From Rufibacter sp. DG15C (GTDB lineage Bacteria > Bacteroidota > Bacteroidia > Cytophagales > Hymenobacteraceae), in the NCBI RefSeq assembly GCF_001577755.1, contig NZ_CP010776.1, forward strand, positions 744,001 through 808,000: a stretch of DNA of 64,000 nt. The letters are read 5' to 3'. Below, piece by piece: positions 4,920 through 63,934 of the stretch (positions are counted from its first letter, which is position 1; every line of letters begins with the position of its first letter). Made by a program: the position numbers and the translations under genes. The notes beneath the pieces are model-generated. The model made no database searches and was not told the origin of the DNA. It saw only the letters and a program-made list of their open reading frames with translations.

Positions 4920-4956
4920 GTTTTTGGCTTATTTTCTGGAAACCAGCCTAAAAACG
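4920..4956. repeat. Dispersed 38-bp palindrome, copy 1
   Basis: Arms GTTTTTGGCT and AGCCTAAAAACG around TTTTCTGGAAA. It lies upstream of the mreB promoter, between mreB and the next gene's terminator. Confidence 0.85.
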
Positions 4957-5009
4957 ACGCTTTTCAAGGTTTTATTCTGAAGGATTAAAGGAGATGACCT
5001 CGTTTTTTT

Positions 5010-5054
5010 ACTAAAACAAAAAAGCCTCTTATACAGAGGCTTTTTTGTTTTAGT
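5010..5054. terminator. Strong bidirectional terminator hairpin
   Basis: A perfect 20-bp stem (5010-5029 with 5035-5054) and a 5-nt loop, with A-rich 5' and T-rich 3' arms, 33 bp past the stop of the 131-residue minus-strand gene. Confidence 0.85.
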
Positions 5055-5087
5055 AATTTTAGGATAGCGGACGTGTCTTTTCTGGGC

Positions 5088-5483
5088 TTAGTTACGCTCA
5101 GACTTGGTTCGGGCAGTGGCTGCTTTTTTGGCTTGCTTGTCAGCGTTCTCACGGGTTCTCTGAGCTTTCTCCTCAGTGCGCACCGCCTGTTTGGCTTGCT
5201 TGGCGGCATCATTGGCTTCCTCGTCAATTCTATCCGCTTCTTTGGCGCGGGCCTTGGCTTCCTTGAAGAGCGCTTGCTGTTCTTTGGCCAAAGACTTGGT
5301 CTGCGCCGCAGATTTCTTGGTATCGGCTTTCAGGGCTTCGGCGTCCTGAAGACGTTGCTTGTCCTGTTGTTCTTTTGCCTTTTGTTCCATCTCTTGCTTG
5401 TTGGTTTCCTGGGCAATGGCATTGGTAGATAATAGTGTTGCACCCCCTAACAAGAAAGCGAAAACAATGGCTTTATTTTTCAT
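5088..5483 (-). CDS. Secreted Ala/Lys/Glu/Gln-rich coiled-coil protein
   Basis: A 131-residue protein of unrecognised family. Residues 1-24 form a signal peptide ending in NAIAQ, and nearly all of the rest (about 25-131) is a highly charged helical region rich in A, K, E and Q, with no Cys and no Trp, so it is probably an extended periplasmic coiled coil. It is monocistronic: a strong terminator follows, and mreB downstream has its own promoter. A wall or envelope role would be a guess from position only. Confidence 0.75.
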   Translation of the reverse strand: MKNKAIVFAFLLGGATLLSTNAIAQETNKQEMEQKAKEQQDKQRLQDAEALKADTKKSAAQTKSLAKEQQALFKEAKARAKEADRIDEEANDAAKQAKQAVRTEEKAQRTRENADKQAKKAATARTKSERN

Positions 5484-5580
5484 TATATTTTATTGATTTA
5501 CAGTTTATTATCTATACGCAACAAAGCCCTTTCGAACTGGAATTAGAGATTTTATATATTCTAGAAGCGCTATAAAATAA

Positions 5581-5630
5581 TTGCTGCGTTTTTGGCCCGT
5601 TTTCCAGAAAGTAAGCCAAAAACGCAGCAA
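5581..5630. repeat. Dispersed palindrome, copy 2, with extended arms
   Basis: The core is flanked by TTGCTG on the left and CAGCAA on the right, so complementarity extends 6 bp beyond the core. It lies between the 131-residue gene and the purH terminator. Confidence 0.88.
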
Positions 5631-5639
5631 CCTACTTTT

Positions 5640-5689
5640 ACCAAACAAAACGGCCAGTTATGCATGCATAACTGGCCGTTTTGTTTGGT
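5640..5689. terminator. Perfect 50-bp palindromic terminator after purH
   Basis: The two 25-base halves (5640-5664 and 5665-5689) are exact reverse complements, with A-rich left and T-rich right ends, 16 bp past the purH stop (minus strand). Confidence 0.85.
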
Positions 5690-5705
5690 TGATAATAATT
5701 TGATT

Positions 5706-7235
5706 CTAGTGCTTGAAGTGACGTACGCCGGTCATGACCATGGCCATGCTGCGCTCATTACAAGCATCAATGGAGTCTTGGTCTTTAATAGAACCACCCG
5801 GCTGCACCACGGCGGTAATACCCGCTTCTGACGCAATGGTCACGCAGTCTGGGAACGGGAAGAACGCGTCTGAGGCCATCACCGCGCCCTGCAAATCAAA
5901 CCCGAAGCTTCTGGCTTTCTCAATAGCTTGGCGCAGAGCATCTACCCGTGACGTTTGCCCCACGCCGCTGGACAACAACTGGTTGCCTTTGGCCAGCACA
6001 ATGGTATTGGACTTGGTGTGTTTACAGACCTTCAAGGCGAATTCCAGTCCTTCTACTTCTTCCTGAGATGGTGCGCGGTTGGTGGCGGTTTTAAAGTCTT
6101 TGGCAGTTTCGGTGGCTAAGTCTTTATCCTGCTCAATCACGCCGTTCAATAATGTCTTGAACAGTTTGGTGGGAAGTTGCACCGGCTTCTGTCTTAGCAA
6201 GATGCGGTTCTTCTTAGAGGAAAGCAACTCCAACGCGTCCTGGTCAAAGGCTGGGGCAATCAAGACCTCAAAGAAGAGCTTGTTCAGTTCCTGAGCCGTG
6301 GCCAGGTCAATGGTCTTATTGGCAATAATCACCCCGCCAAACGCTGACACCGGGTCACAGGCCAGGGCGTTCAAATACGCCTGGCGGATGGTTTCGGCTA
6401 CGGCCACGCCGCAGGCATTGGTGTGCTTCAAGATGGCCACCGCAGGCTGGTCAGCGAACTCGGCCATCAACAGCACGGCGGCGTCAACGTCTACCAGGTT
6501 GTTATAAGAAAGCTCCTTGCCGTTGAGCTTGTCAAACAGTTGGTCCAGGTTGCCATAGAACGTACCGGCTTGGTGTGGATTCTCACCATAACGCAAGGCT
6601 TGGCTGGTGCGCTCACTTTGCTTAAAGGCTGGGGCTAATTCCTGCCCTTGGCTTAGGTGCTGGAAGATGTGGGTGTCATAATGTGAAGACACGTCAAACG
6701 CCCTGGCAGCGAAACGCTTTCTATCTGTCAAATCTGTGCTACCGTTCTTGGCCTGCAACAGCTCTACCACCTCACCGTACTGCTCGCGGTTAGAGACAAT
6801 GAGCACGTCTTGGAAGTTTTTGGCCGCCGCTCTAATCAAGGAAATGCCGCCTATGTCAATCTTCTCAATGATGTCTTCCTCTGCCGCACCAGAGGCCACG
6901 GTTTCTTCAAACGGGTATAAGTCCACAATCACCAGGTCCAAAGCCGGAATCTGGAAGTGGCGCAACTCCTGTTGGTCCTGCTCATGCCCGCGGCGGTGCA
7001 GAATCCCCCCGAAGATTTTTGGGTGCAAAGTCTTCACTCTTCCGCCGAAGATGGACGGATAATCGGTTACGTTTTCTACCGGCACTACCTCTACGCCTAG
7101 CTTCTCCAAAAAGTCTTGGGTGCCACCCGTAGAATAAAATGTCACGCCTTGTTTCTGCAACTCGCGCACCAGTGGCTCCAGGCCGTCTTTGTAGTACACA
7201 GAGATTAAAGCAGATTTGATTTTAACGGTATTCAT
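5706..7235 (-). CDS. purH: Bifunctional AICAR transformylase/IMP cyclohydrolase PurH
   Basis: A 509-residue cytoplasmic enzyme for the last two steps of IMP synthesis: formylation of AICAR with 10-formyl-THF, then ring closure. The N-terminal cyclohydrolase (MGS-like) domain shows STGGTQDFLEKLGVEV and GGRVKTLHPKIFGG. The transformylase domain shows RYGENPHQ and the catalytic KHTNACGVA motif. It is full length. purN, another folate-dependent purine enzyme, lies 219 bp upstream on the same strand; nothing else is recognised in that gap. Confidence 0.97.
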   Translation of the reverse strand: MNTVKIKSALISVYYKDGLEPLVRELQKQGVTFYSTGGTQDFLEKLGVEVVPVENVTDYPSIFGGRVKTLHPKIFGGILHRRGHEQDQQELRHFQIPALDLVIVDLYPFEETVASGAAEEDIIEKIDIGGISLIRAAAKNFQDVLIVSNREQYGEVVELLQAKNGSTDLTDRKRFAARAFDVSSHYDTHIFQHLSQGQELAPAFKQSERTSQALRYGENPHQAGTFYGNLDQLFDKLNGKELSYNNLVDVDAAVLLMAEFADQPAVAILKHTNACGVAVAETIRQAYLNALACDPVSAFGGVIIANKTIDLATAQELNKLFFEVLIAPAFDQDALELLSSKKNRILLRQKPVQLPTKLFKTLLNGVIEQDKDLATETAKDFKTATNRAPSQEEVEGLEFALKVCKHTKSNTIVLAKGNQLLSSGVGQTSRVDALRQAIEKARSFGFDLQGAVMASDAFFPFPDCVTIASEAGITAVVQPGGSIKDQDSIDACNERSMAMVMTGVRHFKH

Positions 7236-7454
7236 ATAAGTTGGGAATGATTGGGTTCAATGAGAAAATTCAAGGCCATACGCTTTAGGACATACGTAGC
7301 CCTCCCAAAATCCAGATGTAGCTGGCTCTGGGAATGCAAACAAGTGTGCCCACTGCAGGTAGCAGGACCTTTAATAAGAAAGCACAAAAAGTTAGAGGCC
7401 AGATGAAGGGAGCAAAACACAGAGGGCTGGAGTAGTCGCTTCATCTTTGGCAGG

Positions 7455-8054
7455 TTAGGCTCTGGGGGTCTGTTTGTCTTGGGTGAGCAACTCCTCAACC
7501 ACGCGCGGCAGGTGTTGGTGCTCCAGGGAAAGCACGCGCGCCGCCAGGGTCTCGCAGGTATCATCTGCGCGGACGGGGCAGGTCTCTTGAAAGATGGGCG
7601 CACCCTCGTCATAGTGCTCATTCACATAATGAATGGTAATCCCGGTCTCTCCTTCGGCCGCATCCAACACCGCTTGGTGTACGTGCTCGCCATGCATGCC
7701 TTTGCCGCCAAACTTAGGCAGCAGCGCCGGATGGATGTTAATGATTCTGTTGTGGAAGGCCTTCACAAACTCGGCGGGCAGCAGCCATAAAAATCCGGCC
7801 AGTACAATCAAATCTGGATGATAGGCTTGCACCTGTTGAGCCACGGTTCCGTCTTTTAGAGAAGCCCGGTCAAAGACCACAGTGGGGACGTTGAAGTTTT
7901 CGGCCCGCTGCAGGGCAAACGCGTTGGCGTTGTTGGAGAAGAGCGCCGCCACCTGGATGGTAGGATGGTGCTCGAAGTGCTCCAGCAGGCGCTGGGCATT
8001 GCTCCCAGAGCCGGAAGCGAAAATAACGATGTTCTTTTTAGAAGAAGTACCCAA
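7455..8054 (-). CDS. purN: Phosphoribosylglycinamide formyltransferase PurN
   Basis: A 199-residue GART that transfers formyl from 10-formyl-THF to GAR in purine synthesis. The N-terminal phosphate loop IVIFASGSGSNAQ, the catalytic INIHPALLPKFGGKGMHGEHVH region and TGITIHYVNEHYDEG are present. No ATG precedes the conserved start in frame: an in-frame TGA lies 4 codons upstream, so TTG at 8054 is the likely start. An out-of-frame ATG at 8067 opens a 9-codon ORF overlapping this start. A -7 element lies at 8081-8088. Confidence 0.93.
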   Translation of the reverse strand: MGTSSKKNIVIFASGSGSNAQRLLEHFEHHPTIQVAALFSNNANAFALQRAENFNVPTVVFDRASLKDGTVAQQVQAYHPDLIVLAGFLWLLPAEFVKAFHNRIINIHPALLPKFGGKGMHGEHVHQAVLDAAEGETGITIHYVNEHYDEGAPIFQETCPVRADDTCETLAARVLSLEHQHLPRVVEELLTQDKQTPRA

Positions 8055-8080
8055 AACAGCTGGTCATGCAGATGGAAGAG

Positions 8081-8088
8081 CAAAGATA
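8081..8088 (-). promoter_or_regulatory. -7 promoter element of purN
   Basis: TATCTTTG on the minus strand, 26 bp upstream of the purN TTG start. It abuts palindrome copy 3, so the -33 region lies inside the repeat, where only a weak CTG match is found. Confidence 0.5.
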
Positions 8089-8089
8089 G

Positions 8090-8127
8090 CGTTTTTGGCC
8101 TCTTTTCCAGAAAACAGGCTAAAAACG
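8090..8127. repeat. Dispersed palindrome, copy 3
   Basis: CGTTTTTGGCC and GGCTAAAAACG arms with the CCAG-type centre (TTTTCCAGAAAA). This copy is in a promoter region rather than after a stop codon. Confidence 0.85.
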
Positions 8128-8188
8128 ATGGATTTGTTTTCTCGCTGTGATTGGGCCGTCAATGAAGTCTATAGTTCTTTACTACCGA

Positions 8189-8495
8189 CGTGCACGGCTT
8201 TGGCTGTTCCTGAGAAGGCTCTTTCTTCCGGTGCCCTTATGCCCTTTCCTTCGCCTTCACCGCTAAGCGCTCACGGCCGCGGGGCCCCGTCTTCCCGCCT
8301 CGCACTGTACCAGCTTGCCTCTTTTGCATATTTACTTCCTTGAATTAGCTGACCGGTATCGCTTTCTAGTGACCGCTGTTCTGTCAGAGGCGGCAACCTG
8401 CTTAGGCGACTCGCCGGAAAGACTGGATCAGGTGCCTGTAGTAGAGGCCTTTGCCAAACGGAGACTCCCCCCTTGAGGGAGCGAAGGGGGGTGTT
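8189..8495. repeat. Long dispersed non-coding repeat, copy A
   Basis: About 270 bp aligns with 23806-24081. The 145-bp part from GGGGCCCCGTCTTCCC to GCCGGAAAGACTGGA (8281-8427) is almost identical between the copies. It ends in a hairpin of the CCCCCTT/AAGGGGG type (about 8466-8492). Frames through it are open only by chance and differ between the copies. Its GTGCACG...TTGGCT part also matches diverged copy C. Confidence 0.8.
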
Positions 8496-8536
8496 AATAT
8501 CAGGAGATGAATTAGCAATCAACAATTAATAATTGC

Positions 8537-8563
8537 TTCGTTTTTAGGCTATTTTCCTAACCT
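8537..8563. repeat. Half copy of the dispersed palindrome
   Basis: Only the left half (CGTTTTTAGGCTATTTTCC) is present, 26 bp before a complete copy; it looks truncated. Confidence 0.5.
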
Positions 8564-8588
8564 TCTTCCTCAGAGAGAAGAGACTGCT

Positions 8589-8626
8589 CGTTTTTGGCCT
8601 CTTTTCCAGAAAACAGGTCAAAAACG
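8589..8626. repeat. Dispersed palindrome, copy 4
   Basis: Complete copy with the CCAG centre, 6 bp past the stop of the DUF4130 gene (minus strand). Confidence 0.87.
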
Positions 8627-8632
8627 AAGGGA

Positions 8633-9466
8633 TTAATTTAACCGGGCCAGCCCCGTGGGCAGTTGCTTGTTCTGGATGGGCTGGTGCGTCTGGATTCTGG
8701 GTTTCTTTTCGGTGAGGTATTTCCAGTAGCGCTTGGGCATGTGCCGCATGTGCAGTTTCTTGTTGCGCCGCTCCGGGATGTTGACGTGGTCAAAGTAAGC
8801 CTGCCATAGCTGTTGGTACAATGGCTCCACGCCAGACAGAATATCCCGTGGCAAATCAATCTTTTGGAAAGCCGGCGCGCCGTCTTCCATAGACACTAAC
8901 TCTACAAACTGGCCATTATAGAAAGCTCCGTACTGCCGCTTCACATCATAGATGAGCCATTGCTGGTCGGCGTAGCGTTTCTCAAAGTGGGTGACAATCA
9001 ATGGCAGCACATTGAAGTCAGGTTGGATGGGCGCTACGTAAAGGCCGTCTTGTGTACACTGGAACCTGACAAAGGCTTCCATGCGGTGCTTTTCCCGAAA
9101 CATCTGTTTGCCCACCTGCGCCATCTTCTGGACGCAGGGTTCCGCGAAGTTCTCTTCTATTCCCTCCTGCTGGCTGGAGAAGACCAGTTGCACAAACTGC
9201 CAGATGAGCATCTCAAAACCGGGTTGTTCCCAGAGATAGGCTTTGTATACATTCTCCCAAGCGGCCTTAGACAGCTTCTTGCCCAAACCTTCCCAAACGC
9301 GCTTGGCCTTGGCCTCATCTGCCGGGATGAAATGGTGCTCCGCGAAAATACCCGGAGGCGTCTCTCCTTCCTTGCCTATCTGGTCTGGCCAGGCCTTGCG
9401 CTCATACGCCTCAAAGATGACCGTAAGCAGTCCCTCAAAGGAGCCGTCATAGGTATAGAAGTGCAT
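8633..9466 (-). CDS. DUF4130 / TIGR03915-type putative DNA repair protein
   Basis: A 277-residue protein of the family found beside the radical SAM protein encoded just upstream. The C-terminal ERRNKKLHMRHMPKRYWKYL segment and the N-terminal YTYDGSFEGLLTVIFEAY are family hallmarks. Some relatives are fused to a uracil-DNA-glycosylase-like domain; this one ends at DUF4130. ATG at 9466 is chosen over a TTG two codons upstream. Biochemistry is not established; a DNA repair or modification role is inferred from its partner. It probably shares a transcript with that gene. Confidence 0.82.
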   Translation of the reverse strand: MHFYTYDGSFEGLLTVIFEAYERKAWPDQIGKEGETPPGIFAEHHFIPADEAKAKRVWEGLGKKLSKAAWENVYKAYLWEQPGFEMLIWQFVQLVFSSQQEGIEENFAEPCVQKMAQVGKQMFREKHRMEAFVRFQCTQDGLYVAPIQPDFNVLPLIVTHFEKRYADQQWLIYDVKRQYGAFYNGQFVELVSMEDGAPAFQKIDLPRDILSGVEPLYQQLWQAYFDHVNIPERRNKKLHMRHMPKRYWKYLTEKKPRIQTHQPIQNKQLPTGLARLN

Positions 9467-9485
9467 AGCCAAAGGATACGCAAGT

Positions 9486-9635
9486 TTAGGAAGCGATGCG
9501 GATGTTGCTCAACGCGGCGTTGGCGGCTTCTTCCTGGCGCTGGGCAGATAGTTGGCGCAGGTACGGCACCAGCGTGCTTAGTTTGCAACGGAAAGAAATA
9601 GGAGCTACGGTTTGGCGGGCAGTGATAGATTGCAT
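9486..9635 (-). CDS. Possible 49-residue small protein
   Basis: An ATG-started ORF in the 249-bp gap between the radical SAM and DUF4130 genes, on their strand. The product starts MQSITARQTVAP and ends NIRIAS, with an amphipathic, Ala/Gln-rich C-terminal half; no family is recognised. It could instead be spacer sequence. Support is position and the gap size only. Confidence 0.3.
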   Translation of the reverse strand: MQSITARQTVAPISFRCKLSTLVPYLRQLSAQRQEEAANAALSNIRIAS

Positions 9636-9715
9636 GGCGGTGTTGGTTTGATGTTTTACAAGTAAGATTTTCTTTGATTTGGAAGCGTTCAGCTTCCCGG
9701 TTCTGGAGCGGCGGT

Positions 9716-10981
9716 TCAGCCGGCCTGCTGAAACAAATCCAACTGGCTTCCCCACAGACCGTTTCGGTCTCCCTTTTCCCCGAAAAGGATTCTTCTTCGG
9801 ATGGCTTCCTCGTCCCATTCTCTCGTCTCCAAACTGCGCCCTCCGCAGGTGATAAAATACTTGGCCCGTTTAATGACCACCCCAATCTGTTTCAGGTTCT
9901 CCCAACTGAGGTAGGCAAAGCGGCGGGCCGCCACTATCTTCTTGGCAGACTTCAAGCCTATGCCCGGCACCCGGACAATCATCTCATAGTCTGCGGTATT
10001 GATTTCTAAAGGAAACACGTGCCGGTTGCGCAGCGCCCAAGCCAACTTGGGGTCAATCTGCAAATCCAGGTTAGGGTTCTGCTCATCCAGCAACTCCTTG
10101 GCATCAAAGCCATACAGGCGCATGAGCCAGTCTGCCTGGTACAACCTGTTCTCTCTGATAATGGGCGGCGTACTGATGATGGGCAGTCGGCTGTCCGTCA
10201 CCACGGGCACGTAACCCGAATAGTAGACCCGCTTCAACTCAAAGTTCTTGTACAAGCCGCTGGACAAGGCCAGAATCTGGCGGTCGCTTTCGGGCGTAGC
10301 GCCTACTATCAACTGCGTACTCTGCCCGGCCGGCGCGAAGGCAGGCGTAGACTTGAACAGCTTCTTCTCCTCTTTCACCAAGACCAACTGGTCTTTGATG
10401 TTGCCCATGGGCGTGAGAATCTCCTTGTAGTTCTTCTCCGGCGCCAGGGTCTGCAGGCTCAGTTCAGAGGGCAGCTCAATGTTCACACTCAATCTATCGG
10501 CGTACTTGCCGGCTTCTTTGATGAGTTCCTCGCTGGCACCAGGTATAGTCTTTAGGTGAATGTACCCGTTGAAGTTGTGCTCCAGGCGCAGTTTCTTGGC
10601 AATGCGCACCAGGCGCTCCATGGTATAGTCAGAGTCCTTGAAAATACCAGAGCTCAGGAACAAGCCTTCAATGTAATTGCGGCGGTAGAAGTTGATGGTC
10701 AAATCCACTACTTCCTGCACCGTAAAGGCCACGCGCTTCACGTCATTGCTCTTTCTAGAGACGCAGTAGGCGCAGTCAAAAATGCAGAAGTTGGTAAGCA
10801 GGATTTTCAGCAGAGACACGCAACGGCCATCCTCAGTGTAGCTGTGGCAAATGCCCATACCTTCGGCGTTACCTAATCCTTTGCCTTCGTTTTTGCGTTT
10901 ACCGCCGCTAGAAGAGCAAGAGACGTCGTACTTAGCCGAATCTGCCAAAATGCTTAGCTTTTCAATGATAGTGTTCTGCAT
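9716..10981 (-). CDS. Radical SAM putative DNA modification/repair protein (TIGR03916-like)
   Basis: A 421-residue protein. The N-terminal EKLSILADSAKYDVSCSSSG block is typical of the family, followed by the 4Fe-4S/SAM motif C66-x3-C70-x2-C73 (NFCIFDCAYC), the radical SAM barrel, and a C-terminal helix-hairpin-helix-like segment (VPGIGLKSAKKIVAARR, about residues 325-340) that suggests DNA contact. ATG at 10981 is chosen because family similarity begins there, although a start 12 codons upstream is possible. It pairs with the DUF4130 protein downstream. The reaction is unknown. Confidence 0.87.
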   Translation of the reverse strand: MQNTIIEKLSILADSAKYDVSCSSSGGKRKNEGKGLGNAEGMGICHSYTEDGRCVSLLKILLTNFCIFDCAYCVSRKSNDVKRVAFTVQEVVDLTINFYRRNYIEGLFLSSGIFKDSDYTMERLVRIAKKLRLEHNFNGYIHLKTIPGASEELIKEAGKYADRLSVNIELPSELSLQTLAPEKNYKEILTPMGNIKDQLVLVKEEKKLFKSTPAFAPAGQSTQLIVGATPESDRQILALSSGLYKNFELKRVYYSGYVPVVTDSRLPIISTPPIIRENRLYQADWLMRLYGFDAKELLDEQNPNLDLQIDPKLAWALRNRHVFPLEINTADYEMIVRVPGIGLKSAKKIVAARRFAYLSWENLKQIGVVIKRAKYFITCGGRSLETREWDEEAIRRRILFGEKGDRNGLWGSQLDLFQQAG

Positions 10982-11172
10982 CTGTGTGGTTTTATGTACT
11001 CCTGAATGCGTTAGCAAGATACTAACAACTCCACTTTATAACTAATACTATTAGCTTTTGTTTTCCACAAGTTGATGTTCAAATGTTTATAACACTAAAA
11101 ATATTAGCATAAAGACGCGTATCACCAGAAATGCATGATTTTTGCGTACTTTAGGAGGATGGATTATTGGGC

Positions 11173-13116
11173 ATGAGCGCTAACAGACCCGGCACAGGTT
11201 CTTTGAAGGCCTTAAAGGTTGCCGTACTCTTACTTCTGCTTTCTTTGTTGTGGCTACATAGCTCACCCATTGCCTGTGCCCAAGTGGTGGTGCCAGACAC
11301 GTCCTTTGTCCCTACTCCCGCCCCAGCGTTAGATACTGCCGCCAGAGACTCTACCCAACAGAAACGGTTCCTAGATTTCCTGCGGCGCATGAGCCAGCGC
11401 AAAACCATTTTTGGGAGGGCCATCCGAGCGTTGGTGGTATTTAAGCCGCGCAAACTGGAAGGCTCAGTAGACGCTGAACTGCTCCCGCAAGACCAGGAGA
11501 AGCACAATTACAAGGTGGTGCGCAACATCCACTTTGTACGCATGGACGCTTTTGGCTACAACATCAATGATACCTTGCAGGTACCAGACAATGCGCTGGA
11601 GAAATTCGGGAACGCTTTACATTCTAGGTCCAAGCCACGGTTGTTGCGCAACAAGCTTTTGTTTCAGAAAGGCAAGTTTCTGGAACCGCTGGCCTTGTCT
11701 GAGTCTGAGCGTTTACTGCGCCAAACGGATTACATAGTAGATGCGCGCATACTGGTCAATGATTCTTCCTCCACCCAGGACAGTGTGGACATCACGGTCA
11801 TCACCAAGGACATTTTCAGTTTGAGTGGCTCGGGGTCTGTGAGTACGTCAGGCACGCGCCTAGCCTTGCGGGACATTAACTTTCTGGGGCTGGGGCACCA
11901 GGTACGCACCGTGGGTAGGTTTGCCACAGATGACCCGCAGGGCTGGCTGTTTCAGGGGAGTTATTTAATTGAGAACATCTACCGGTCCTATATCTCCGCT
12001 GAATTGATCTACCGAAACGAATACACCTACAAGCAGCAGGGCATTTCGTTTCAGAGGGATTTCTACTCTACCAATACCAAATACGCGGGGGGTGCTACCA
12101 TCAACTGGTACCAGACGCTGCAGCCAGATTTTTATGAGCCCGAGGTCTATGACACAGACCCTGTTCCCACACCAGCCCCCATTCTGTACAAGCCCTTGGA
12201 CTACAACGTGCAGGATATTTGGGTGGGCCGCGCCTTCCGGCTCAAGTCCTATGATTTGAGCCATGACAACCCTGGCCGCCTGATTACGGCCTTGCGCGTC
12301 ATGAACGTGCAGTACACCCAAGGCACCGGCCCAACCATCCAGAGCGCGCGCCTGTACCTATCCGGTTTGGGCTACAGCTTCAGAAGATACTATAAGGACC
12401 AGTACCTGTTTGGTTTTGGTAGAACTGAGGATATTCCGGCGGGTAACCTACTGGCCGTCACGGCGGGCTTTGAAGACGGATCCGCTAAAAATCGGTTGTA
12501 CTTTGGCGCAAAGGCTGCCTTTGGCAAGTATAGGCCCAGCTTTGGGTATTTGTACGGAGGCTTGGAGTATGGCAGTTACCGGTACCAGGGTGGTTGGGAG
12601 CAGGGCGTTTTAACCTCAGAGGCCTTGTATTTTACGCCGCTCTATAAATTGAACCGCTGGCGCTGGCGGCATTTCTTGTGGAACAGAACCCAGATTGGCT
12701 TACGAAGACCAGATTTGTTTGCCTTGCACATTAACCAGGAAGACGGCATCAGGGGGTTCAGGTCAGAGGCGGTGCGCGGCTACCGTAAGTTTGTCTTGAA
12801 CTATGAGACCAACTTCTTTGCGCCAGTGACCGTGTTTGGGTTCAGGCTGGCAGTGGTGGGCTTCGCCGATTTGGCCTGGATCACAGAAAAGAAAGACGGG
12901 TCCCCTTTCTCTGAGAAACCCTATACCGGCGTGGGGATGGGTTTCAGGTTCAGGAACGAATACCTGCCCTTTAGCACCATCCAGATTCTGGTAGGCTATT
13001 ACCCACGGGTGCCCATTGACAACCAAACCGATCTCAAGTTTTTCAGGAGTTCCCGCCCCTATTATGACTTCAATGACCTGCGCTTTACCCAGCCGTTGAT
13101 CACCGAGTTCAGGTAA
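11173..13116 (+). CDS. BamA/Omp85-like outer membrane protein
   Basis: A 647-residue protein with a long N-terminal signal (hydrophobic about 12-33), a proline-rich linker, a region compatible with a POTRA domain (about 95-195, with VVRNIHFVRMDAFG), and an Omp85-type beta-barrel, rich in alternating aromatic/polar strands, to the C-terminus. These proteins insert or secrete polypeptides at the outer membrane; with one POTRA-like unit this is not canonical BamA. The start is uncertain: TTG at 11167 has AGGAGG 8 bases upstream, while ATG at 11173 overlaps the stop of a 5-codon ORF starting at 11159. It diverges from the radical SAM gene. Confidence 0.8.
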   Translation: MSANRPGTGSLKALKVAVLLLLLSLLWLHSSPIACAQVVVPDTSFVPTPAPALDTAARDSTQQKRFLDFLRRMSQRKTIFGRAIRALVVFKPRKLEGSVDAELLPQDQEKHNYKVVRNIHFVRMDAFGYNINDTLQVPDNALEKFGNALHSRSKPRLLRNKLLFQKGKFLEPLALSESERLLRQTDYIVDARILVNDSSSTQDSVDITVITKDIFSLSGSGSVSTSGTRLALRDINFLGLGHQVRTVGRFATDDPQGWLFQGSYLIENIYRSYISAELIYRNEYTYKQQGISFQRDFYSTNTKYAGGATINWYQTLQPDFYEPEVYDTDPVPTPAPILYKPLDYNVQDIWVGRAFRLKSYDLSHDNPGRLITALRVMNVQYTQGTGPTIQSARLYLSGLGYSFRRYYKDQYLFGFGRTEDIPAGNLLAVTAGFEDGSAKNRLYFGAKAAFGKYRPSFGYLYGGLEYGSYRYQGGWEQGVLTSEALYFTPLYKLNRWRWRHFLWNRTQIGLRRPDLFALHINQEDGIRGFRSEAVRGYRKFVLNYETNFFAPVTVFGFRLAVVGFADLAWITEKKDGSPFSEKPYTGVGMGFRFRNEYLPFSTIQILVGYYPRVPIDNQTDLKFFRSSRPYYDFNDLRFTQPLITEFR

Positions 13117-22351: not shown

Positions 22352-22403
22352 AAAGAATCGTTTTTGGTTTGTTTTCTAGAAAACAAACCAAAAACGATTC
22401 TTT
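22352..22403. repeat. Dispersed palindrome, copy 7, a perfect 52-bp palindrome and likely terminator
   Basis: Both 26-base halves are exact reverse complements. The core carries GGTTTG/CAAACC instead of GGCCTG/CAGGCC, a paired change, and the flanks AAAGAAT/ATTCTTT add 7 bp. A T-run follows on the plus strand, so here the element can terminate the upstream gene. Confidence 0.92.
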
Positions 22404-24280: not shown

Positions 24281-24284
24281 TAGC

Positions 24285-24391
24285 ACTTATCCAGAAAGAC
24301 GGAGGGATTAGGCCCTGTGATGTCTTAGCAACCCAATTCAGTTGGGTGCTACTTCCTACCCAGTTCGCGTAGCGTGCTGGGGGAGATGAGT
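24285..24391 (+). promoter_or_regulatory. SAM-I (S-box) riboswitch controlling metH
   Basis: The S-box core is readable: CTTATC, GGAGGGATTAGGCCC, GATGTCTTAGCAACCC and the P3-type hairpin ACCCAATTCAGTTGGGT. P1 forms between ACTTATC (24285-24291) and GATGAGT (24385-24391), with one G-U pair. It sits in the 190-nt leader of metH, so high SAM should lower methionine synthase expression. A covariance-model search with the Rfam SAM model would settle the class. Confidence 0.85.
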
Positions 24392-24475
24392 GACGGAATT
24401 TCCTGCACGCCTGCCCGCCACTTTTCCTCTGCCCTTTCTGTATACGTAACCATACCCAGGTGAACCCAGAAAGCC

Positions 24476-41638: not shown

Positions 41639-41727
41639 CACGTTAAAGCCAGAACCACGAACCTTACATTTTTTATGTGGGTCCGATTCTGGCTTGTTTT
41701 TCCTAAAACTCCTCTAAACTGAAGGCT

Positions 41728-55562: not shown

Positions 55563-55576
55563 GAAAGCATCAGGAG

Positions 55577-57535: not shown

Positions 57536-57570
57536 GATTTTAGATACTAGGCGCTAGACCTTAGACATTT

Positions 57571-57608: not shown

Positions 57609-57638
57609 CCCGTTGCTACTTTAGCAACGGGCGTTTTT
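57602..57638. terminator. Bidirectional terminator between rny and dps
   Basis: 17-bp perfect stem (57602-57618 with 57622-57638), 3-nt loop, A-run then T-run. Confidence 0.9.
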
Positions 57639-57692
57639 GTTTTGCCCTAAGGCGAAGGTGAAAATTAAAGCTAGGCCTTTACCCATAAGGGA

Positions 57693-58169
57693 TTATCGTG
57701 CTTGGAAGGCGTTCAGCATCCAGAGGGTTTTCTCCAGGGCGTTCAAGTCATCACTGATTAAGCCTTGCGTGCCCTCGTCCTCCAATTCAGAGGCCATAGC
57801 CAGGACTTCGCGCTCTAAGTGGATGATCTGCCCGATATTCTCTACGGTGGCTTCCACGGTGTCTACATCGGTGGTGAGGCCTTTGCGTTCCTGTACTCTG
57901 GACGTTGCCAGGTAATCTGAGAAGCTGTGCATGGGCGTGTGGCGGAGGGTTAGGATGCGCTCGGCAATCTCGTCAATGGTCTCAAAGGCGGCGGTGTACA
58001 GTTCTTCAAATTTGGCGTGAAGGGAAAAGAAGTTTCCGCCCCGTATGTTCCAGTGGAAGGCGCGCAGGTTTTGGTAGTACACGTGGTAGTTGGCCAGCAG
58101 CTCATTCAATTTTACGGCTAGGTCCTTGGTGTCTCTGCGTGCTAAGCCTAGTTCATTATGTGATTCCAT
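57693..58169 (-). CDS. dps: Dps ferritin-like DNA protection protein
   Basis: A 158-residue mini-ferritin that oxidises and stores iron with peroxide and shields DNA. The ferroxidase residues are in AFHWNIRGGNFFSLHAKFEELY and FETIDEIAERI, the Dps signature. ATG at 58169 is chosen over a TTG two codons upstream. It is divergent from an OxyR gene, which fits peroxide induction. The upstream A/T-rich segment (58240-58290) may hold its promoter; no certain operator is named. Confidence 0.94.
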   Translation of the reverse strand: MESHNELGLARRDTKDLAVKLNELLANYHVYYQNLRAFHWNIRGGNFFSLHAKFEELYTAAFETIDEIAERILTLRHTPMHSFSDYLATSRVQERKGLTTDVDTVEATVENIGQIIHLEREVLAMASELEDEGTQGLISDDLNALEKTLWMLNAFQAR

Positions 58170-58482
58170 AGTCAAGTATGTTCTAATTAGGTTTGTGTTG
58201 GTGCATACGGGAAAACGCCGACTTATGATGTCATCGCATAAATTGATTATGCCACTTTCATTATAGAGAAAAACTATTATATTAGCAGAGGAAATCGTTT
58301 TTGGCTTCTTTTCTGGAAATCAGCCCAAAAACGGGAAATGCTTTGGACCGTCGTGCCCTGGTACTTATGCCACGGGCGCCCGCTACAGGGGACTGCGCTC
58401 ACAGTGATTACTGCGCCCGCTTTCTCTTGTCAATCCCTGACGCCGCCTTGCCTTTGTAACCGCTAGCCCATCCCCTTATTGC
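58170..58482. other. dps-oxyR divergent regulatory region
   Basis: The 313 bp hold the A/T-rich upstream part of dps (58240-58290), palindrome copy 22, and a weak -7 match (TGCCTTTG, 58449-58456) for oxyR. No ORF is credible. Confidence 0.5.
58296..58333. repeat. Dispersed palindrome, copy 22
   Basis: CGTTTTTGGCTTC with GCCCAAAAACG around TTTTCTGGAAAT. One of few copies located between divergent promoters. Confidence 0.82.
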
Positions 58483-59418
58483 ATGACCCTTACCCAATTG
58501 GAGTACCTGCTGGCCGTGGACACCTACCGTCACTTTGCCACCGCCGCCGAGAAATGTTTTGTGACCCAGCCCACCCTGAGCATGCAGTTGCAGAAGCTAG
58601 AAGACGAGCTGGGCGTACAATTGTTTGACCGCAGTCGCGTGCCCGTTCGGCCCACCGAGCTGGGCAAGGATGTCATTGAGCAGGCCCGCGTCACGGTGTC
58701 TGAGTTCAAGAAAATACAGGAGATTGTGCAGGCCCAGCGCACCGGCATCACCGGCGAGCTGCGCATTGGCGTCATCCCCACGCTGGCCCCCTACCTTATC
58801 CCACTGTTCATCACCGACTTCATTCAGAAATACCCCAAGGTGCACGTGATAGTCCATGAGATGGTCACGGATACCATTATTGAGAAGCTACGGCTGGAGA
58901 TGCTGGACGTGGGTCTGTTGGTGACGCCTCTACAGGAGAAGACCATTGTGGAGATTCCGCTGTTCTATGAGGCCTTTGTGGGCTACCTGCACCCCAAACA
59001 CCCGCTCTTTGCTGAAAAGGAAATCACGCCCGGCGCCATTGACAACGAGGACCTATGGCTCATGAACGAGGGCCACTGCTTTAGAAGTCAGGTGCTGCAG
59101 ATTTGCAACCGGACCAAAGCACCCCGCAACGTGCATTTGGACTATGAGAGCGGCTCTCTGGAAACCCTCAAGCGCATTGTGGAGACCCAGAGCGGCATGA
59201 CCCTCTTGCCAGAGCTATCCGTGATGGACCTGCCCGAAGACAAAAAGGCGATGGTCCGTCCGTTCACAGACCCCGCCCCCTTACGCGAGGTAAGCCTGGT
59301 AGTGCACAAAAGCTTCCTGAAAAAACGCATGATTGAAGCCCTGCGGGAAACCATTTTAGCTCACATCCCCGCAGACCTCAAGACCAGAAACCCGGTGCGC
59401 GTAGTTAAAATAAAATAA
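58483..59418 (+). CDS. oxyR: OxyR-type LysR peroxide sensor
   Basis: A 311-residue LysR regulator: N-terminal winged HTH (ATAAEKCFVTQPTLSMQLQKLE, about 20-41) and a substrate-binding-type sensor domain. It has both peroxide-sensing cysteines, Cys199 (EGHCFRSQ) and Cys208 (LQICN), at the same numbers as in E. coli OxyR, so disulfide activation is likely. The adjacent divergent dps gene is a standard OxyR target. Confidence 0.94.
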   Translation: MTLTQLEYLLAVDTYRHFATAAEKCFVTQPTLSMQLQKLEDELGVQLFDRSRVPVRPTELGKDVIEQARVTVSEFKKIQEIVQAQRTGITGELRIGVIPTLAPYLIPLFITDFIQKYPKVHVIVHEMVTDTIIEKLRLEMLDVGLLVTPLQEKTIVEIPLFYEAFVGYLHPKHPLFAEKEITPGAIDNEDLWLMNEGHCFRSQVLQICNRTKAPRNVHLDYESGSLETLKRIVETQSGMTLLPELSVMDLPEDKKAMVRPFTDPAPLREVSLVVHKSFLKKRMIEALRETILAHIPADLKTRNPVRVVKIK

Positions 59419-59419
59419 A

Positions 59420-59459
59420 CCGTTTTCGGCCCGATTTCCAGAAAATGAGCCAAAAACGG
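59420..59459. repeat. Dispersed palindrome, copy 23
   Basis: CCGTTTTCGGCCC with GAGCCAAAAACGG, beginning 1 bp past the oxyR stop. Confidence 0.85.
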
Positions 59460-59494
59460 ATCCTTCTTTACAGCTTCCCCTTTATTAAGCATTC

Positions 59495-61078
59495 ATGGAA
59501 GAAAGCCAGCCATTCGTCTTTAACCGAGAGCATTTTCTGCGGAAGGTGCAGGAAGAGACTGTTTGGGACGTGGTGGTGATTGGCGGCGGGGCCACCGGCT
59601 TGGGCATTGCCGTGGACGCAGCCTCCCGCGGGTACAAAACGTTGTTGCTGGAGCAGGCGGACTTTGCCAAGGGCACTTCCAGCAGGAGTACCAAACTGGT
59701 CCACGGCGGCGTACGCTACCTGGCCCTGGGCCATATAAAACTGGTCCTGGAGGCCTTGCGGGAACGGGGACGTTTGCTCCAAAACGCCCCGCACCTGGTC
59801 ACCATCCAATCCTTCATCATCCCTACCTTCTCTTGGTGGGACAAGCTAGTCTACGGCCTAGGCTTGACGCTCTATGATCTGATGGCCGGCAGACTTCGCC
59901 TTCGCCGCACCGCCTTTCTCTCTGCCCAGGAAACCGCTCAACAGCTCCCCAACATTAAAACCAAAGGCCTAACCGGCGGCGTGCAGTATTTTGATGGACA
60001 GTTTGATGATACCCGACTGGCCATCAATCTGGCCCAGACCTGCGCCGAGCAAGGCGGCCTCTTGCTGAATTACATGCCGGTGGTCAATCTGTTGAAAGAC
60101 GCTAGGGGAAAAGTTATTGGTGTAACCGCCCAAGATATTGAGTTTGGTCAGGAGTATGTCATCCAAGCCAAGACAGTAATTAATGCCACGGGCGTTTTTG
60201 TCAACAGCATCCTACACATGGACGCGCCCGCGCAGCAGCCCTTGGTACGGCCCAGTCAGGGCGTGCATGTGGTGCTGGACCAGTCCTTCCTGAAAGGCGA
60301 GAATGCCCTAATGATTCCGAAGACCTCTGACGGACGCGTGCTCTTTATGGTGCCGTGGCATGGGTATCTGCTGGTAGGCACCACGGATACGCTGGTCAAT
60401 GAAACCAGCCTGGAGCCGAAGCCGCAGGAACAGGAGATTGATTTTATCCTGGAGACGGCCAGCCACTACCTGGCGCGCAAACCCACCCGGGCAGACGTGC
60501 TGAGCGTCTTTGCCGGACAGCGTCCTTTGGCGGCCCCCACCATCCACACCCATAAGACCAAAGAGATTTCACGCAGCCACAGCCTGTTGGTAGCGCCGTC
60601 TGGCCTCATCACGGTCACAGGCGGCAAGTGGACCACCTACCGCCAAATGGCCGAGGATGCGATTGATTTGGCCATTACCAAAGGTTTTTTACTTCCTCTT
60701 GATTGTCAAACAGCCCAGTTGAAAATTCATGGCTATACAGTAGAGGAAAACCCAGCAGACCCACTGGCCATCTATGGCACAGACAAAGTAGGAATCTTAG
60801 CCTTGGTTCAGCAATTCCCAGACTTGGGCATTCCACTTCATCCAAACTTTTCTCACATCGCCGCTGAAGTAGTTTGGGCCGCGCAATATGAAATGGCGAG
60901 AACCGTGGAGGATGTCTTGGCTAGAAGGCTTCGGGTGCTGTTTCTGGATGCCCGAGCGGCACTGGAGATGGCTCCAAAGGTGGCTCAATTAATGGCGGTT
61001 GCCTTACATAAAGATGCGGCTTGGGAAGAAAATCAAATTCATCAGTTCACGCAATTGGCAAGCCAGTATATTTTGTAG
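59495..61078 (+). CDS. glpD: FAD-dependent glycerol-3-phosphate dehydrogenase/oxidase
   Basis: A 527-residue flavoprotein that oxidises glycerol-3-phosphate to DHAP, feeding electrons to quinone (dehydrogenase) or oxygen. FAD-binding VVVIGGGATGLGIAVDAASRG (quoted here in part: VIGGGATGLGIA) is at about 25-45, followed by TSSRSTKLVHGGVRYL, VPWHGYLLVGTTDT and the C-terminal DAO_C domain. No glpK or glpF is adjacent. Confidence 0.95.
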   Translation: MEESQPFVFNREHFLRKVQEETVWDVVVIGGGATGLGIAVDAASRGYKTLLLEQADFAKGTSSRSTKLVHGGVRYLALGHIKLVLEALRERGRLLQNAPHLVTIQSFIIPTFSWWDKLVYGLGLTLYDLMAGRLRLRRTAFLSAQETAQQLPNIKTKGLTGGVQYFDGQFDDTRLAINLAQTCAEQGGLLLNYMPVVNLLKDARGKVIGVTAQDIEFGQEYVIQAKTVINATGVFVNSILHMDAPAQQPLVRPSQGVHVVLDQSFLKGENALMIPKTSDGRVLFMVPWHGYLLVGTTDTLVNETSLEPKPQEQEIDFILETASHYLARKPTRADVLSVFAGQRPLAAPTIHTHKTKEISRSHSLLVAPSGLITVTGGKWTTYRQMAEDAIDLAITKGFLLPLDCQTAQLKIHGYTVEENPADPLAIYGTDKVGILALVQQFPDLGIPLHPNFSHIAAEVVWAAQYEMARTVEDVLARRLRVLFLDARAALEMAPKVAQLMAVALHKDAAWEENQIHQFTQLASQYIL

Positions 61079-61320
61079 TCATCCACAATCATTCTTCATC
61101 CCTAAAAGTGTCCCAAGCCTGCTGCTTGGGACAGTCCCGTGCTAGTAGATAAAGAAAACCGTGCGCAGCACGCATGCCTCTGCAGCGACAGAGACTGCCA
61201 TTATCTTCCATCAGCCAATCAACCATCCAGCTTATACAGAATTGGAACCAGAACCAGTCTTGGTCCTGAGCACCTCTGTTGTTTCGTCGCCTGAAAGGCG
61301 GGGCCAAAAGCCCAGAGTAC

Positions 61321-61500
61321 AACAGCAGTGCGAAGGGCCAAGACGAGGCCTCGCGGCCGTGAGCGCTAACCGGAGGCTATGGAACAAGGCAGTGGGTGCG
61401 CACCGGTAAGGGCGGTCTTACGCAGGGATAGCCAAATGCGTGCACAAACAAATACTGGAGGAGAATCAGTCTTGTTTGTTGGTGATAACAATAACTACGG
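61321..61500 (-). repeat. Long dispersed repeat, diverged piece C (inverted)
   Basis: Read as reverse complement it matches copy A/B in patches: AGCGCTCACGGCCGCG (61346-61362 region), the CACCGG step, GTGCACGCATTTGGCTATCC and the GATTCTCCTCCAGTA/GGTGATAAC module near 61455-61490. It suggests an old copy of the same element. Confidence 0.6.
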
Positions 61501-61577
61501 CAGAAACTTTAAAGAAGTCAGAGACAGAGAAAGAATTTACTGGAAGTCTTTTCATGGATGGGCCTCTCTAGTTCGCC

Positions 61578-61599
61578 CACAAGATCCTTTCAGGATGAC
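61578..61599. repeat. Single end of the MITE-like element
   Basis: CACAAGATCCTTTCAGGATG plus AC differs at one base from 28315-28336. The bases that follow (61640-61680) resemble the 44-bp spacer of that element, so modules are in a different order. Confidence 0.55.
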
Positions 61600-61693
61600 A
61601 AAGAGAGGAAGGATAAGAGTGACACATCTAAAGTAGTAAATAGAGCCTTAACAAAACGCCTTTGAGTAGACGAAACTCCTACAATTACCTATT

Positions 61694-61735
61694 TTCGTTT
61701 TTAGCTTGATTTCCAGAAAATAAGCTGAAAACGAA
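61694..61735. repeat. Dispersed palindrome, copy 24
   Basis: TTCGTTTTTAGCTT with AAGCTGAAAACGAA; both arms carry the AGCTT/AAGCT variant, a paired change. Confidence 0.85.
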
Positions 61736-61742
61736 GGCAAAC

Positions 61743-61774
61743 AAAAAGGCCGCTCTTTGCAGAGCGGCCTTTTT
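61743..61774. terminator. Terminator after sucD
   Basis: AAAAAGGCCGCTCT, TTGC loop, AGAGCGGCCTTTTT (14-bp stem). Confidence 0.9.
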
Positions 61775-61792
61775 TATAGGTAAAAGAAAAGC

Positions 61793-62683
61793 TTACGCGT
61801 TGGCAAGCTCGCCTTTCAAGGCTTTCAACATAGTGTCGCCAATCTCTGCCGGAGAATCCACCACAAAGATGCCGTTCTCACGCATGATGCGCATTTTAGC
61901 GGCGGCGGTATCATCAGCACCACCAATGATAGCACCGGCGTGGCCCATTCTACGACCAGCAGGAGCCGTCTGGCCTGCAATAAAACCAACTACTGGCTTC
62001 TTATTACCGGTAGAACGGATGTACTCAGCGGCCATTGCCTCATAGTTACCACCAATCTCACCAATCATCACAATAGCGTCGGTCTCTGGATCTTCCATCA
62101 ACAACTCCACTGCGTTTTTAGTAGGTGTTCCAATGATAGGGTCACCACCAATCCCGATGGCGGTAGAGATACCCAAACCAGCTTTCACAATCTGGTCGGC
62201 GGCCTCATAGGTCAACGTACCAGACTTAGACACAATGCCAATTCTACCTGGCTTGAACACGAAACCTGGCATGATACCAACTTTGGCTTCGCCTGGCGTG
62301 ATCACACCTGGGCAGTTTGGTCCAATTAGAGTAACTGCTTTGTTCTTGATGTAGTTTTTAGCGGCTACCATGTCCTTCACCGGAATACCCTCGGTGATAC
62401 AAACAATCACTTCAATGCCGGCATCGGCGGCTTCCATGATGGCGTCAGCAGCAAAGGCCGGTGGCACGAAGATGATAGACACGTTGGCTTGCGCTTTCTG
62501 CACGGCCTCAGCCACAGTGTTGAATACCGGACGGTCCAAGTGAACAGAACCACCTTTACCCGGGGTTACGCCACCAACCACGTTGGTACCATACTCAATC
62601 ATCTGCTGTGCGTGGAAAGAACCTTCTGAGCCGGTGAAGCCCTGCACAATCACCTTGGAATCTTTATTTACTAAAACACTCAT
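61793..62683 (-). CDS. sucD: Succinyl-CoA synthetase alpha subunit
   Basis: A 296-residue TCA-cycle enzyme subunit (succinyl-CoA + NDP + Pi to succinate + NTP). N-terminal CoA-binding Rossmann part with [21 protein letters not shown] and [20 protein letters not shown]; the phosphorylated active-site His is in [12 protein letters not shown] (about 255). The beta subunit gene is not adjacent, as is usual in Bacteroidota. It has its own good promoter. Confidence 0.97.
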
Positions 62684-62731
62684 GTGTAGTGGATTATGTG
62701 ATAGATGTACGCTCTGTTTTCAAACTGTACG

Positions 62732-62761
62732 CAAAAATAGGCTTTTTTGGCGCGCATCCAA
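62732..62761 (-). promoter_or_regulatory. Bacteroidota promoter of sucD
   Basis: TTG (62759-62761 on the minus strand, within TTTG), 19 bases, TATTTTTG (62732-62739); leader of about 40 nt. Confidence 0.65.
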
Positions 62762-62800
62762 ACTAAGACTCCGCATTAAACCGCTTACCTCCGCACCTGT

Positions 62801-62838
62801 CGTTTTCGGGCTGCTTTCCAGGAAACACGTCAAAAACG
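62801..62838. repeat. Dispersed palindrome, copy 25
   Basis: CGTTTTCGGGCTGC with a decayed right arm CGTCAAAAACG; between the divergent sucD and uvsE genes. Confidence 0.75.
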
Positions 62839-62968
62839 GAAAATCACCCCATCCGCTTACTGGTTTTGCTAGCAGGCACAAGCAAAACACTCCCTCCCGC
62901 CATCCGTTTACAAGAATTCTAAACATCTGCCCTTGGTAGCGGTTATTAGGCCCAAAACCCACCGTAAC

Positions 62969-63862
62969 ATGAAAATAGGATACCCGTGCGTGAATGAGTC
63001 TCTGGACTGCAGTACCTCTACCACCTTCAGGCTGGCGTCTTATAGTGAGGAGCGGTTGGTGCAGAACGTGGAGAAGAACCTGGCCTGCCTGCGCCGCATT
63101 CTGGAATACAACCTGGAGCATGGGTTTCTGTTCTTTAGGATGAGTTCTGGGTTAGTGCCTTTTGCCAGCCATGCCGTGTGCACCTACAACTGGCAGCAGC
63201 ACTTCCAGATGACGTTCAAGCGGCTGGGCGACTTTATCAAGAAGCACGGCATGCGCATCTCCATGCACCCAGACCAGTTTGTGGTGTTGAACTCGCCAGA
63301 CGAGCGCATTGTGCGCAACAGTATTGCAGAGTTGGTGTACCAAGGCAGTGTCATGGACTTGATGGGGCTGGACTCCACGGCCAAGCTGCAGATACACGCC
63401 GGCGGCGTCTACGGCGACAAGCCAGCGGCCCTCCAACGCTTCATCCACACCTACCATACCATGCTGCCCGAGGAAGTGAAGGCCCGGCTGGTGGTGGAGA
63501 ACGATGACCGCCTTTACAGCCTTCGGGATTGTTTAGAGTTACACGGCGAAACCGGAATTCCCATCCTGTTTGACAACTTCCACCATGAATGCCTGAACAA
63601 CGGAGAGCCCATGGCCGAGGCCCTGCAACTGGCTGCCGGTACTTGGCACCCGCACACCGACGGCGTGCTCATGATGGACTACAGTTCGCAGTCTCAGGGG
63701 GAGCGCAAGGGCAAGCACACCAACAGCATGGACGTAGAGCTATTCCGGGAATTTTTGACGCACCTGAACGGTCTGGACGTGGACATCATGCTGGAAATCA
63801 AAGACAAGGAAGCCAGCTGTCTGCGCGCGCGCCAAGTCTTAGAGGAACTGGCCTTGGTGTAA
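62969..63862 (+). CDS. uvsE: UV DNA damage endonuclease UvsE/UvdE
   Basis: A 297-residue TIM-barrel endonuclease that nicks 5' of UV photoproducts and other lesions. Family motifs: KIGYPCVNESL at the start, FRMSSGLVPFASH, RISMHPDQFVVLNSP, QIHAGGVYGDK, LVVENDDRLYSL and ILFDNFHHECLN, carrying the His/Glu/Asp metal ligands. ATG at 62969 is preferred over a start 12 codons upstream, where similarity is lost. Confidence 0.95.
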   Translation: MKIGYPCVNESLDCSTSTTFRLASYSEERLVQNVEKNLACLRRILEYNLEHGFLFFRMSSGLVPFASHAVCTYNWQQHFQMTFKRLGDFIKKHGMRISMHPDQFVVLNSPDERIVRNSIAELVYQGSVMDLMGLDSTAKLQIHAGGVYGDKPAALQRFIHTYHTMLPEEVKARLVVENDDRLYSLRDCLELHGETGIPILFDNFHHECLNNGEPMAEALQLAAGTWHPHTDGVLMMDYSSQSQGERKGKHTNSMDVELFREFLTHLNGLDVDIMLEIKDKEASCLRARQVLEELALV

Positions 63863-63892
63863 ACTCCCGTTCAATCATTAAATTATCAGCAC

Positions 63893-63934
63893 CTCGTTTT
63901 TGGCCTATTTTCTGAAAAAGAGGCCAAAAACGAA
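63893..63934. repeat. Dispersed palindrome, copy 26
   Basis: CGTTTTTGGCC with GGCCAAAAACG, both arms intact around TATTTTCTGAAAAAGA; 30 bp past the uvsE stop. Confidence 0.9.

Follow-up and report, generated by a model that had tools for sequence, protein, structure and literature searches.

A genus-specific palindromic DNA dyad that looks selected at transcription-unit boundaries in Rufibacter

The window analyzed here is a stretch of 64,000 nucleotides from the genome of Rufibacter sp. DG15C (genome G000, one contig of 4,143,738 bases, positions 744,001–808,000). It contains 26 copies of a 38-bp palindrome, hereafter the core, which looks selected as a genus-specific DNA dyad at the boundaries of transcription units. 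The core lies between genes, is kept in place, varies independently in its two arms in G000, and is confined to the genus. A DNA site is its best interpretation in G000. With somewhat less than even confidence we regard it as the site of a putative symmetric protein, for which marking a boundary would be the likeliest role. In the well-conserved dialects the arms pair no more often than chance predicts and the motif shows no polarity relative to transcription, which is why this reading is preferred to that of an RNA hairpin or of a mobile element spread by copying. A first-pass annotation, made from the letters of the window alone, had noticed the palindrome and named an mRNA 3′-end protector, a nucleoid-protein site and a mobile hairpin as possible roles; beyond its reach were the restriction to one genus, the spelling peculiar to each species, the position of cores between a stop codon and a promoter-like box, and the subset built into terminators.

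Cores were scored with a symmetric 38-bp weight matrix at a standard cut-off of 20 bits, using reversed sequence as control, in a G000 sample of 464 kb that comprised the window and 20 further stretches of 20 kb each. The window holds 26 cores of at least 39 bits, spanning positions 4919 to 63932, and a single doubtful match of 12 bits at 41684, in agreement with the 26 or more sites counted originally. The sample contained 182 cores and its reversed sequence none. The choice of cut-off barely mattered (189 copies at 8 bits, 181 at 24 bits), and extrapolation from these 464 kb gives approximately 1,600 cores for the whole genome of 4.14 Mb. A stricter pattern, TTTTTGGCC-N10-18-GGCCAAAAA, had 205 matches in the genome and none when written backwards. 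The G000 consensus is CGTTTTTGGCCTGTTTTC-centre-GAAAACAGGCCAAAAACG, with CG at both ends. The T's at positions 4–6 and 15–16, and the mirrored A's, are 97–100% conserved, and the most variable positions are 8, 10, 13, 14, and 19. Within each arm GTTTT is repeated directly with a spacing of 11 bp, the whole core thus amounting to four YGTTTT boxes whose arms face each other across the centre, and its T-run sits on the 5′ arm. CA or TG stands at the very centre of 94 of 183 copies, where column composition predicts 57, with no clear preference for either one relative to the gene (34 vs. 28). The information content of the core is 48 bits, and the full dyad is nearly always present, lone half-sites numbering 12 as compared to 3 in the reversed control.

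Placement was assessed relative to our own gene calls. For 166 of the 182 sampled cores the location was intergenic; another 12 overlapped a called open reading frame (ORF), and four were situated at the edges of stretches; five of the 12 overlaps were inspected, of which two were errors in the start call and three lay within long ORFs with Pfam hits. The initial claim that the palindrome never lies inside a gene thus holds for the window, where any overlap between the 26 cores and a called gene amounts to 6 bp at most, but not for these three cores. Among spacers of at least 60 bp, summed over six species, 129 of 151 convergent ones were occupied, as compared to 363 of 637 tandem and 61 of 159 divergent ones, so that density is highest between convergent genes. 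Of the occupied G000 spacers, 148 carry one core and nine carry two, double occupancy being more frequent in other species. Within tandem spacers of G000, 53 of 107 copies fall into the first fifth, nearest the upstream stop codon. TAnnTTTG boxes, which are a promoter motif of Bacteroidota, are rare 5′ of the core and peak 40–60 bp 3′ of it, although part of this peak consists of the orthologues of one locus. A fixed distance between core and promoter was considered and rejected, since a peak at 52–53 bp derived largely from one locus in several species; only the broad range of 40–60 bp was retained. A core was found within 80 bp downstream of tRNA ends at 4 of 20 loci, a number too small for interpretation.

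A selected hairpin would cause covariation between the arms. In G000 the number of Watson–Crick pairs per site was 13.93, as compared to 13.89 when arms were shuffled among sites (n = 181, p = 0.33), and tandem sites pooled from six high-information genomes had 4408 pairs where 4413 were expected, with the GU minus AC difference in these genomes also at expectation (z = −0.1). Pairing at chance level gives no sign of a selected hairpin in the G000 core, and the mRNA 3′-end protector therefore finds no support in this genome. Arm composition in gene-sense orientation is symmetric (n = 113, p = 0.20), the quality of the left and right arms is uncorrelated (r = 0.04), no two of the 182 G000 cores are identical, and the columns are nearly independent except for neighbors and the centre. 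The independent half-sites and symmetric conserved positions that characterize a DNA-binding site were hence found in G000, and more weakly in the low-information species; paired arms preserved as a structure, as in a repetitive extragenic palindrome (REP), were found neither in G000 nor in the six pooled high-information genomes. Two apparent RNA signals faded on closer analysis. Covariation in the core hairpin had arisen from the strict pattern, which selected perfect copies; it was gone in unselected G000 cores and weak in low-information species. An excess of GU over AC in genomes G014 and G004 held, when compared with shuffled arms, in G004 only (z = 3.1).

The genus is taken here as Rufibacter in the wide sense, a member of the family Hymenobacteraceae; the five best-matching named relatives of a window protein come from Rufibacter and Sabulibacter. 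The first-pass annotation had proposed counting copies over the complete genome and relatives, and besides the strict matches in G000 mentioned above, the pattern with one mismatch allowed was present in all 16 genus genomes searched (51 to 1,559 matches). Elsewhere in the family, 5 of 188 genomes had one or two such matches and the remaining 183 none, and the exact pattern had no match in 383 other genomes of the order. The strict pattern occasionally matched with one base less or more in the relatives, and its spelling was missing from 5 of the 16 genus genomes. Ten genus members scored with the weight matrix carry 0.38 to 0.55 copies per kb, and no core of at least 16 bits was found in five sister genera (34–40 kb each). 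A de novo dyad search in one stretch of 34–40 kb from each of these five genera found nothing comparable, but the search also missed the cores of genus member G008 and would miss a diffuse dyad. One sister genus (G020; L185–L186) has a different dyad, ATGCT with a gap of 11, in five copies within 40 kb (0.04 expected). The spelling of the core is species-specific (CGTTTTTGGCCTGTTTTC in G000, CGTTTTCGGGCTCATTTC in G012, and CGTTTAGGGGCTGTTTTT in G005) and differs even at the same places, and some sites of the window are empty in certain aligned relatives. Comparison of G000 with G013 revealed 39 orthologous spacers with a core in one or both genomes, of which 35 were shared, two were occupied in G000 only and two in G013 only. 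Orthologous cores of this pair agree at 30.5 of 38 positions, random pairs at 29.1, and the flanks are 66% identical (15 spacers). Since orthologous agreement is close to that of random pairs, yet 35 of 39 spacers are shared, the place of the core is kept while its free positions are near-random.

Whether a gene end has an ordinary terminator does not depend on the presence of a core. Of 257 gene 3′ ends in G000, 96 have a terminator, 173 a core and 67 both, against an expected 64.6. Five sister genera that lack the core have a terminator at 26 of 119 ends. Replacement of terminators by the core was rejected, as ordinary terminators are not depleted. Together with the symmetry of the core relative to transcription, these numbers bear out the original view that the palindrome is not simply a terminator, and most copies do not consist of a stem directly followed by a T-run. 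However, a minority of cores double as intrinsic terminators by means of a locus-specific outer stem and an on average T-rich tail. A perfect stem of at least 4 bp lengthens 26 of 166 G000 copies on the outside (2.8 expected); such copies make up 8–26% by species, above chance in all six species. The 20 extended tandem copies of G000 have on average 4.45 T's in the 8 bases after the stem and 2.35 A's in the 8 bases before it, and five other species are likewise T-rich after the stem (5 to 19 tandem copies each). The effect is least in G012 (29 of 112 copies extended, 14.7 expected; T 3.32 vs. A 2.11). Among 113 tandem copies of G000, 23 have an outer stem (3.9 expected), and the sequence that follows is T-rich in 16 of these 23 as compared to 21 of 90 stemless copies. 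It is this on average T-rich DNA after the stem that marks such cores as terminators. In 28 orthologous pairs from G000 and G013 an outer stem was present in one or both members in eight cases; two were unchanged in both genomes, two were lost in G013, and four (L017 1729, L019 5212, L023 17412, and window 49023) persist in both with letters altered on both sides, the last being only 4 bp long and perhaps due to chance. The outer stem thus acts like an RNA structure, unlike the core. A core that prolongs the T-run of an ordinary terminator was also seen in an IMG/VR contig classed as viral (L244:1275–1310).

The 26 copies of the window are the following (no strand assigned):

4919..4956, core in a tandem spacer, 51 bits
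5587..5624, core in a 6-bp outer stem (TTGCTG/CAGCAA), 53 bits
8090..8127, core adjoining a conserved gcaaagatag, 60 bits; a core or decayed core is in place in 7 of 7 aligned relatives (G013, G005, G006, G012, G008, G004, G003)
8589..8626, core 6 bp after a minus-strand stop, 58 bits
13120..13157, core in a 7-bp outer stem (GTAACGC/GCGTTAC), stop 3 bp before it, 53 bits
18167..18204, core 2 bp after the PorP/SprF stop, 51 bits; spacer occupied by one or more copies in 8 of 8 aligned relatives
22359..22396, core in an outer stem (AAAGAAT/ATTCTTT) followed by a T-run, a composite terminator, 53 bits
23626..23663, core 3′ of an ordinary terminator, 46 bits
24165..24202, core 5′ of the metH S-adenosylmethionine (SAM) riboswitch, 51 bits
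28173..28210, core 7 bp after the metH stop, 61 bits
29422..29459, core 4 bp after metF (MTHFR), convergent genes, 53 bits
31894..31931, core with the same letters at the orthologous place in G013, 47 bits
33951..33988, core 38 bp after a stop, 56 bits
34885..34922, weaker core 4 bp after a stop, 40 bits
35640..35677, weaker core, 40 bits
38957..38994, core 28 bp after a stop, 56 bits
44313..44350, core in an outer stem (AAAAGC/GCTTTT) between convergent genes, missing in G013, 48 bits
46215..46252, core 14 bp after a stop, 46 bits
49023..49060, core with a 4-bp outer stem, 47 bits
51242..51279, core prolonging the T-run of an ordinary terminator, 56 bits
57571..57608, core between convergent genes, 43 bits
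58296..58333, core between divergent genes, 57 bits
59421..59458, core 2 bp after the stop of a LysR-type (oxyR-like) gene, 47 bits
61696..61733, core between convergent genes, 50 bits
62801..62838, core between divergent genes, 45 bits
63895..63932, core 32 bp after the UvdE-family stop, 58 bits

According to the first-pass annotation about two thirds of the copies lay within 40 bp past a stop codon, a share that came to 15 of 26 with our gene calls. The distances of 1–6 bp it had given were recovered for metF, the PorP/SprF gene and the LysR-type gene, whereas metH fell just outside that range. The core said to overlap the stop codon at 13114–13116 begins 3 bp past it, but its extended outer arm does cover the TAA. 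The SAM riboswitch 5′ of metH is located at window positions 24284–24392. An Rfam search of the window and the 20 further stretches gave no match to the core at gathering score, the only hits being this riboswitch, two tRNAs and RNase P.

These features could be explained by a model in which a putative symmetric protein recognizes the 38-bp core as double-stranded DNA; it would be either a tetramer or a dimer in which each subunit contacts the DNA twice. Such a protein would usually find one site per spacer, past the upstream stop and ahead of the next promoter-like box. The bound site, probably bent, would organize the chromosome and stop transcription or supercoiling from spilling into the neighboring unit, and a minority of cores would additionally be built into intrinsic terminators by an outer stem and T-rich tail. 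The first-pass annotation was right to offer a nucleoid-protein site as a possibility. To our knowledge, boundaries written into the sequence between most neighboring transcription units are not known from bacteria. No account of the palindrome was found among the open-access papers listed by literature searches, as far as titles and the beginnings of abstracts tell. A more far-reaching version, a genus-wide insulator in which a fast-evolving dedicated dimeric protein marks most boundaries, approximately 1,600 sites, in dialects that have coevolved with it, seems possible but rather doubtful. The wider question is how a 48-bit site that is fixed in place at about 1,600 positions, yet respelled in each species, could change together with its reader.

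Several observations weigh against a boundary site read by a protein. The information content far exceeds the approximately 11 bits that 1,600 sites would require by an arithmetic estimate. In G012, 24 of 88 occupied spacers hold two cores. A start codon follows some cores at a short distance, as in the case of a RuvX-family gene that begins 6 bp 3′ of one (L014:14350–14387), which makes the core awkward as a strict barrier. One 20-kb stretch with 40% GC (L005, positions 100,001–120,000 of the G000 genome), probably acquired DNA, has a core in only 1 of 11 spacers. Pairing is in weak excess in five pooled low-information genomes (1858 vs. 1773, z = 4.8) and in G001 (223 vs. 208, z = 2.8), the sole high-information genome with such an excess. 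Of the six well-sampled genomes, all but G004 (0 vs. 0) hold more perfect palindromes than arm shuffling predicts (G000, 6 vs. 1.1; G012, 11 vs. 5.6; G006, 3 vs. 0.2; G014, 1 vs. 0.01; G013, 11 vs. 2.1 with n = 146 and some sites counted twice), and identical copies in G012 number 22 as compared to 8.6 after arm shuffling; the number of identical cores in G013, inflated by an overlap between two of its stretches, was left out of account. Finally, no protein stood out when 20 of 30 distinct genes next to the 16 divergent cores in the G000 sample were scanned against Pfam; the DNA-binding families encountered among these 20 genes were cold-shock, MerR and LysR.

The rival that survives best, which we nevertheless consider unlikely, is an RNA hairpin at mRNA 3′ ends, with the core folding in the transcript to terminate, protect or process it. 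It would account for the strong 3′ bias in tandem spacers, for the outer-stem subset that in all six species is T-rich after the stem and not A-rich before it, and for the presence of the outer stem in both species in six of eight orthologous pairs, four of them with changes on both sides. In the low-information species, the weak pairing excess is accompanied by fewer A–C mismatches than expected (220 vs. 254), and in these dialects the core may have a structural or RNA role. However, the chance-level pairing and GU minus AC balance of the six high-information genomes, the symmetry of the core relative to transcription, and the T-run on the 5′ arm speak against a selected RNA fold, and the core neither replaces nor avoids ordinary terminators.

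A REP/BIME-like mobile hairpin (BIME, bacterial interspersed mosaic element), spread by a REP-associated tyrosine transposase (RAYT) of the Y1 family or another enzyme, appears more improbable still. Being high-copy, extragenic and palindromic, the core is a REP in the loose sense, and a genus-limited proliferation, the excess information, the excess of perfect palindromes and the duplicates in G012 would suit a mobile origin, as would a larger mosaic repeat of which some copies end in the core. This separate dispersed repeat (L019:15660–15915, in the G000 genome from 2,915,660 on) is about 90–250 bp long and has at least 10 copies. A RAYT-driven REP had been suggested by three Y1 genes near strict palindromes. 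No member of the Y1 family (PF01797, IS200/RAYT-type) was detected in G000 at E ≤ 1e-3 despite its extrapolated 1,600 cores, nor did a Y1 protein of G013 used as query find a match there, whereas each of 15 relatives has one to six, hits that also serve as the positive control for the protein query. In the relatives, 22 Y1 loci (20 stretches together with L105 and L106) were compared, with the following genes having a core on each side:

Y1 genes with a core of at least 20 bits on both sides (8 of 22, relatives): L105, L107, L108, L109, L113, L115, L119, L125

Other genes at these loci had a core on each side in 9 of 39 cases, and G000 genes in 69 of 344. As 8 of 22 and 9 of 39 differ too little, an association between Y1 genes and cores is not clear, and the RAYT-driven REP was rejected on this comparison and the lack of a detectable Y1 gene in G000; the RAYT-like gene flanked by the palindrome that the first-pass annotation had suggested looking for was thus not found in G000. 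A RAYT-associated REP carries an unpaired GTAG or CGTC tag at one end (PMC3733652). The flanks of 113 tandem copies contained no GTAG or CGTC tag, so that neither by its tag nor by flanking a Y1 gene does the core behave as a RAYT-associated REP. The mobile hairpin is further at odds with the absence of identical pairs among the G000 cores, with the 35 of 39 orthologous spacers shared, and with the near-empty, probably acquired stretch.

Gene conversion or template switching that keeps the palindromes alike without any function is very unlikely. It is consistent with dialects that differ between species at the same places, with the excess of perfect palindromes and with their outward extension, but very unequal position conservation and near-independent columns are unlike whole-tract copying, and the T-rich side tracks gene direction. 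Least probable of all is a sequence spread by molecular drive, of the uptake type or another, with a receptor setting its dialect: copy number, dialects and terminator overlap resemble uptake sequences (cf. PMC3630211, PMC2397512), but nearly all cores are intergenic full 38-bp dyads, of 48 bits, with few lone half-sites, and are retained in place.

Several known systems invite comparison. The core resembles REPs and BIMEs as a short, high-copy, intergenic palindrome that often stands just after stop codons, and CGTC REP families have been reported in Bacteroidetes (PMC3733652). It differs from them in being untagged, usually single per spacer, not clonal and kept in place, with no RAYT detected in G000. 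A bidirectional terminator is approached by the subset of cores that lie at the apex of an outer stem with a T-rich tail, but in the core proper the T-run belongs to the 5′ arm, and the high-information species do not maintain its pairing. In Neisseriaceae and Pasteurellaceae, DNA uptake sequences are short and often located within genes. They are similar to the core in copy number and dialects and in that some inverted pairs act as terminators, whereas the core occurs almost solely as a full dyad between genes. Like the matS sites of MatP and the parS sites of ParB, the core would be a palindromic double-stranded chromosomal site read by a dimer, but with its 38 bp, its extrapolated 1,600 copies and its location at transcription-unit boundaries it differs from both.

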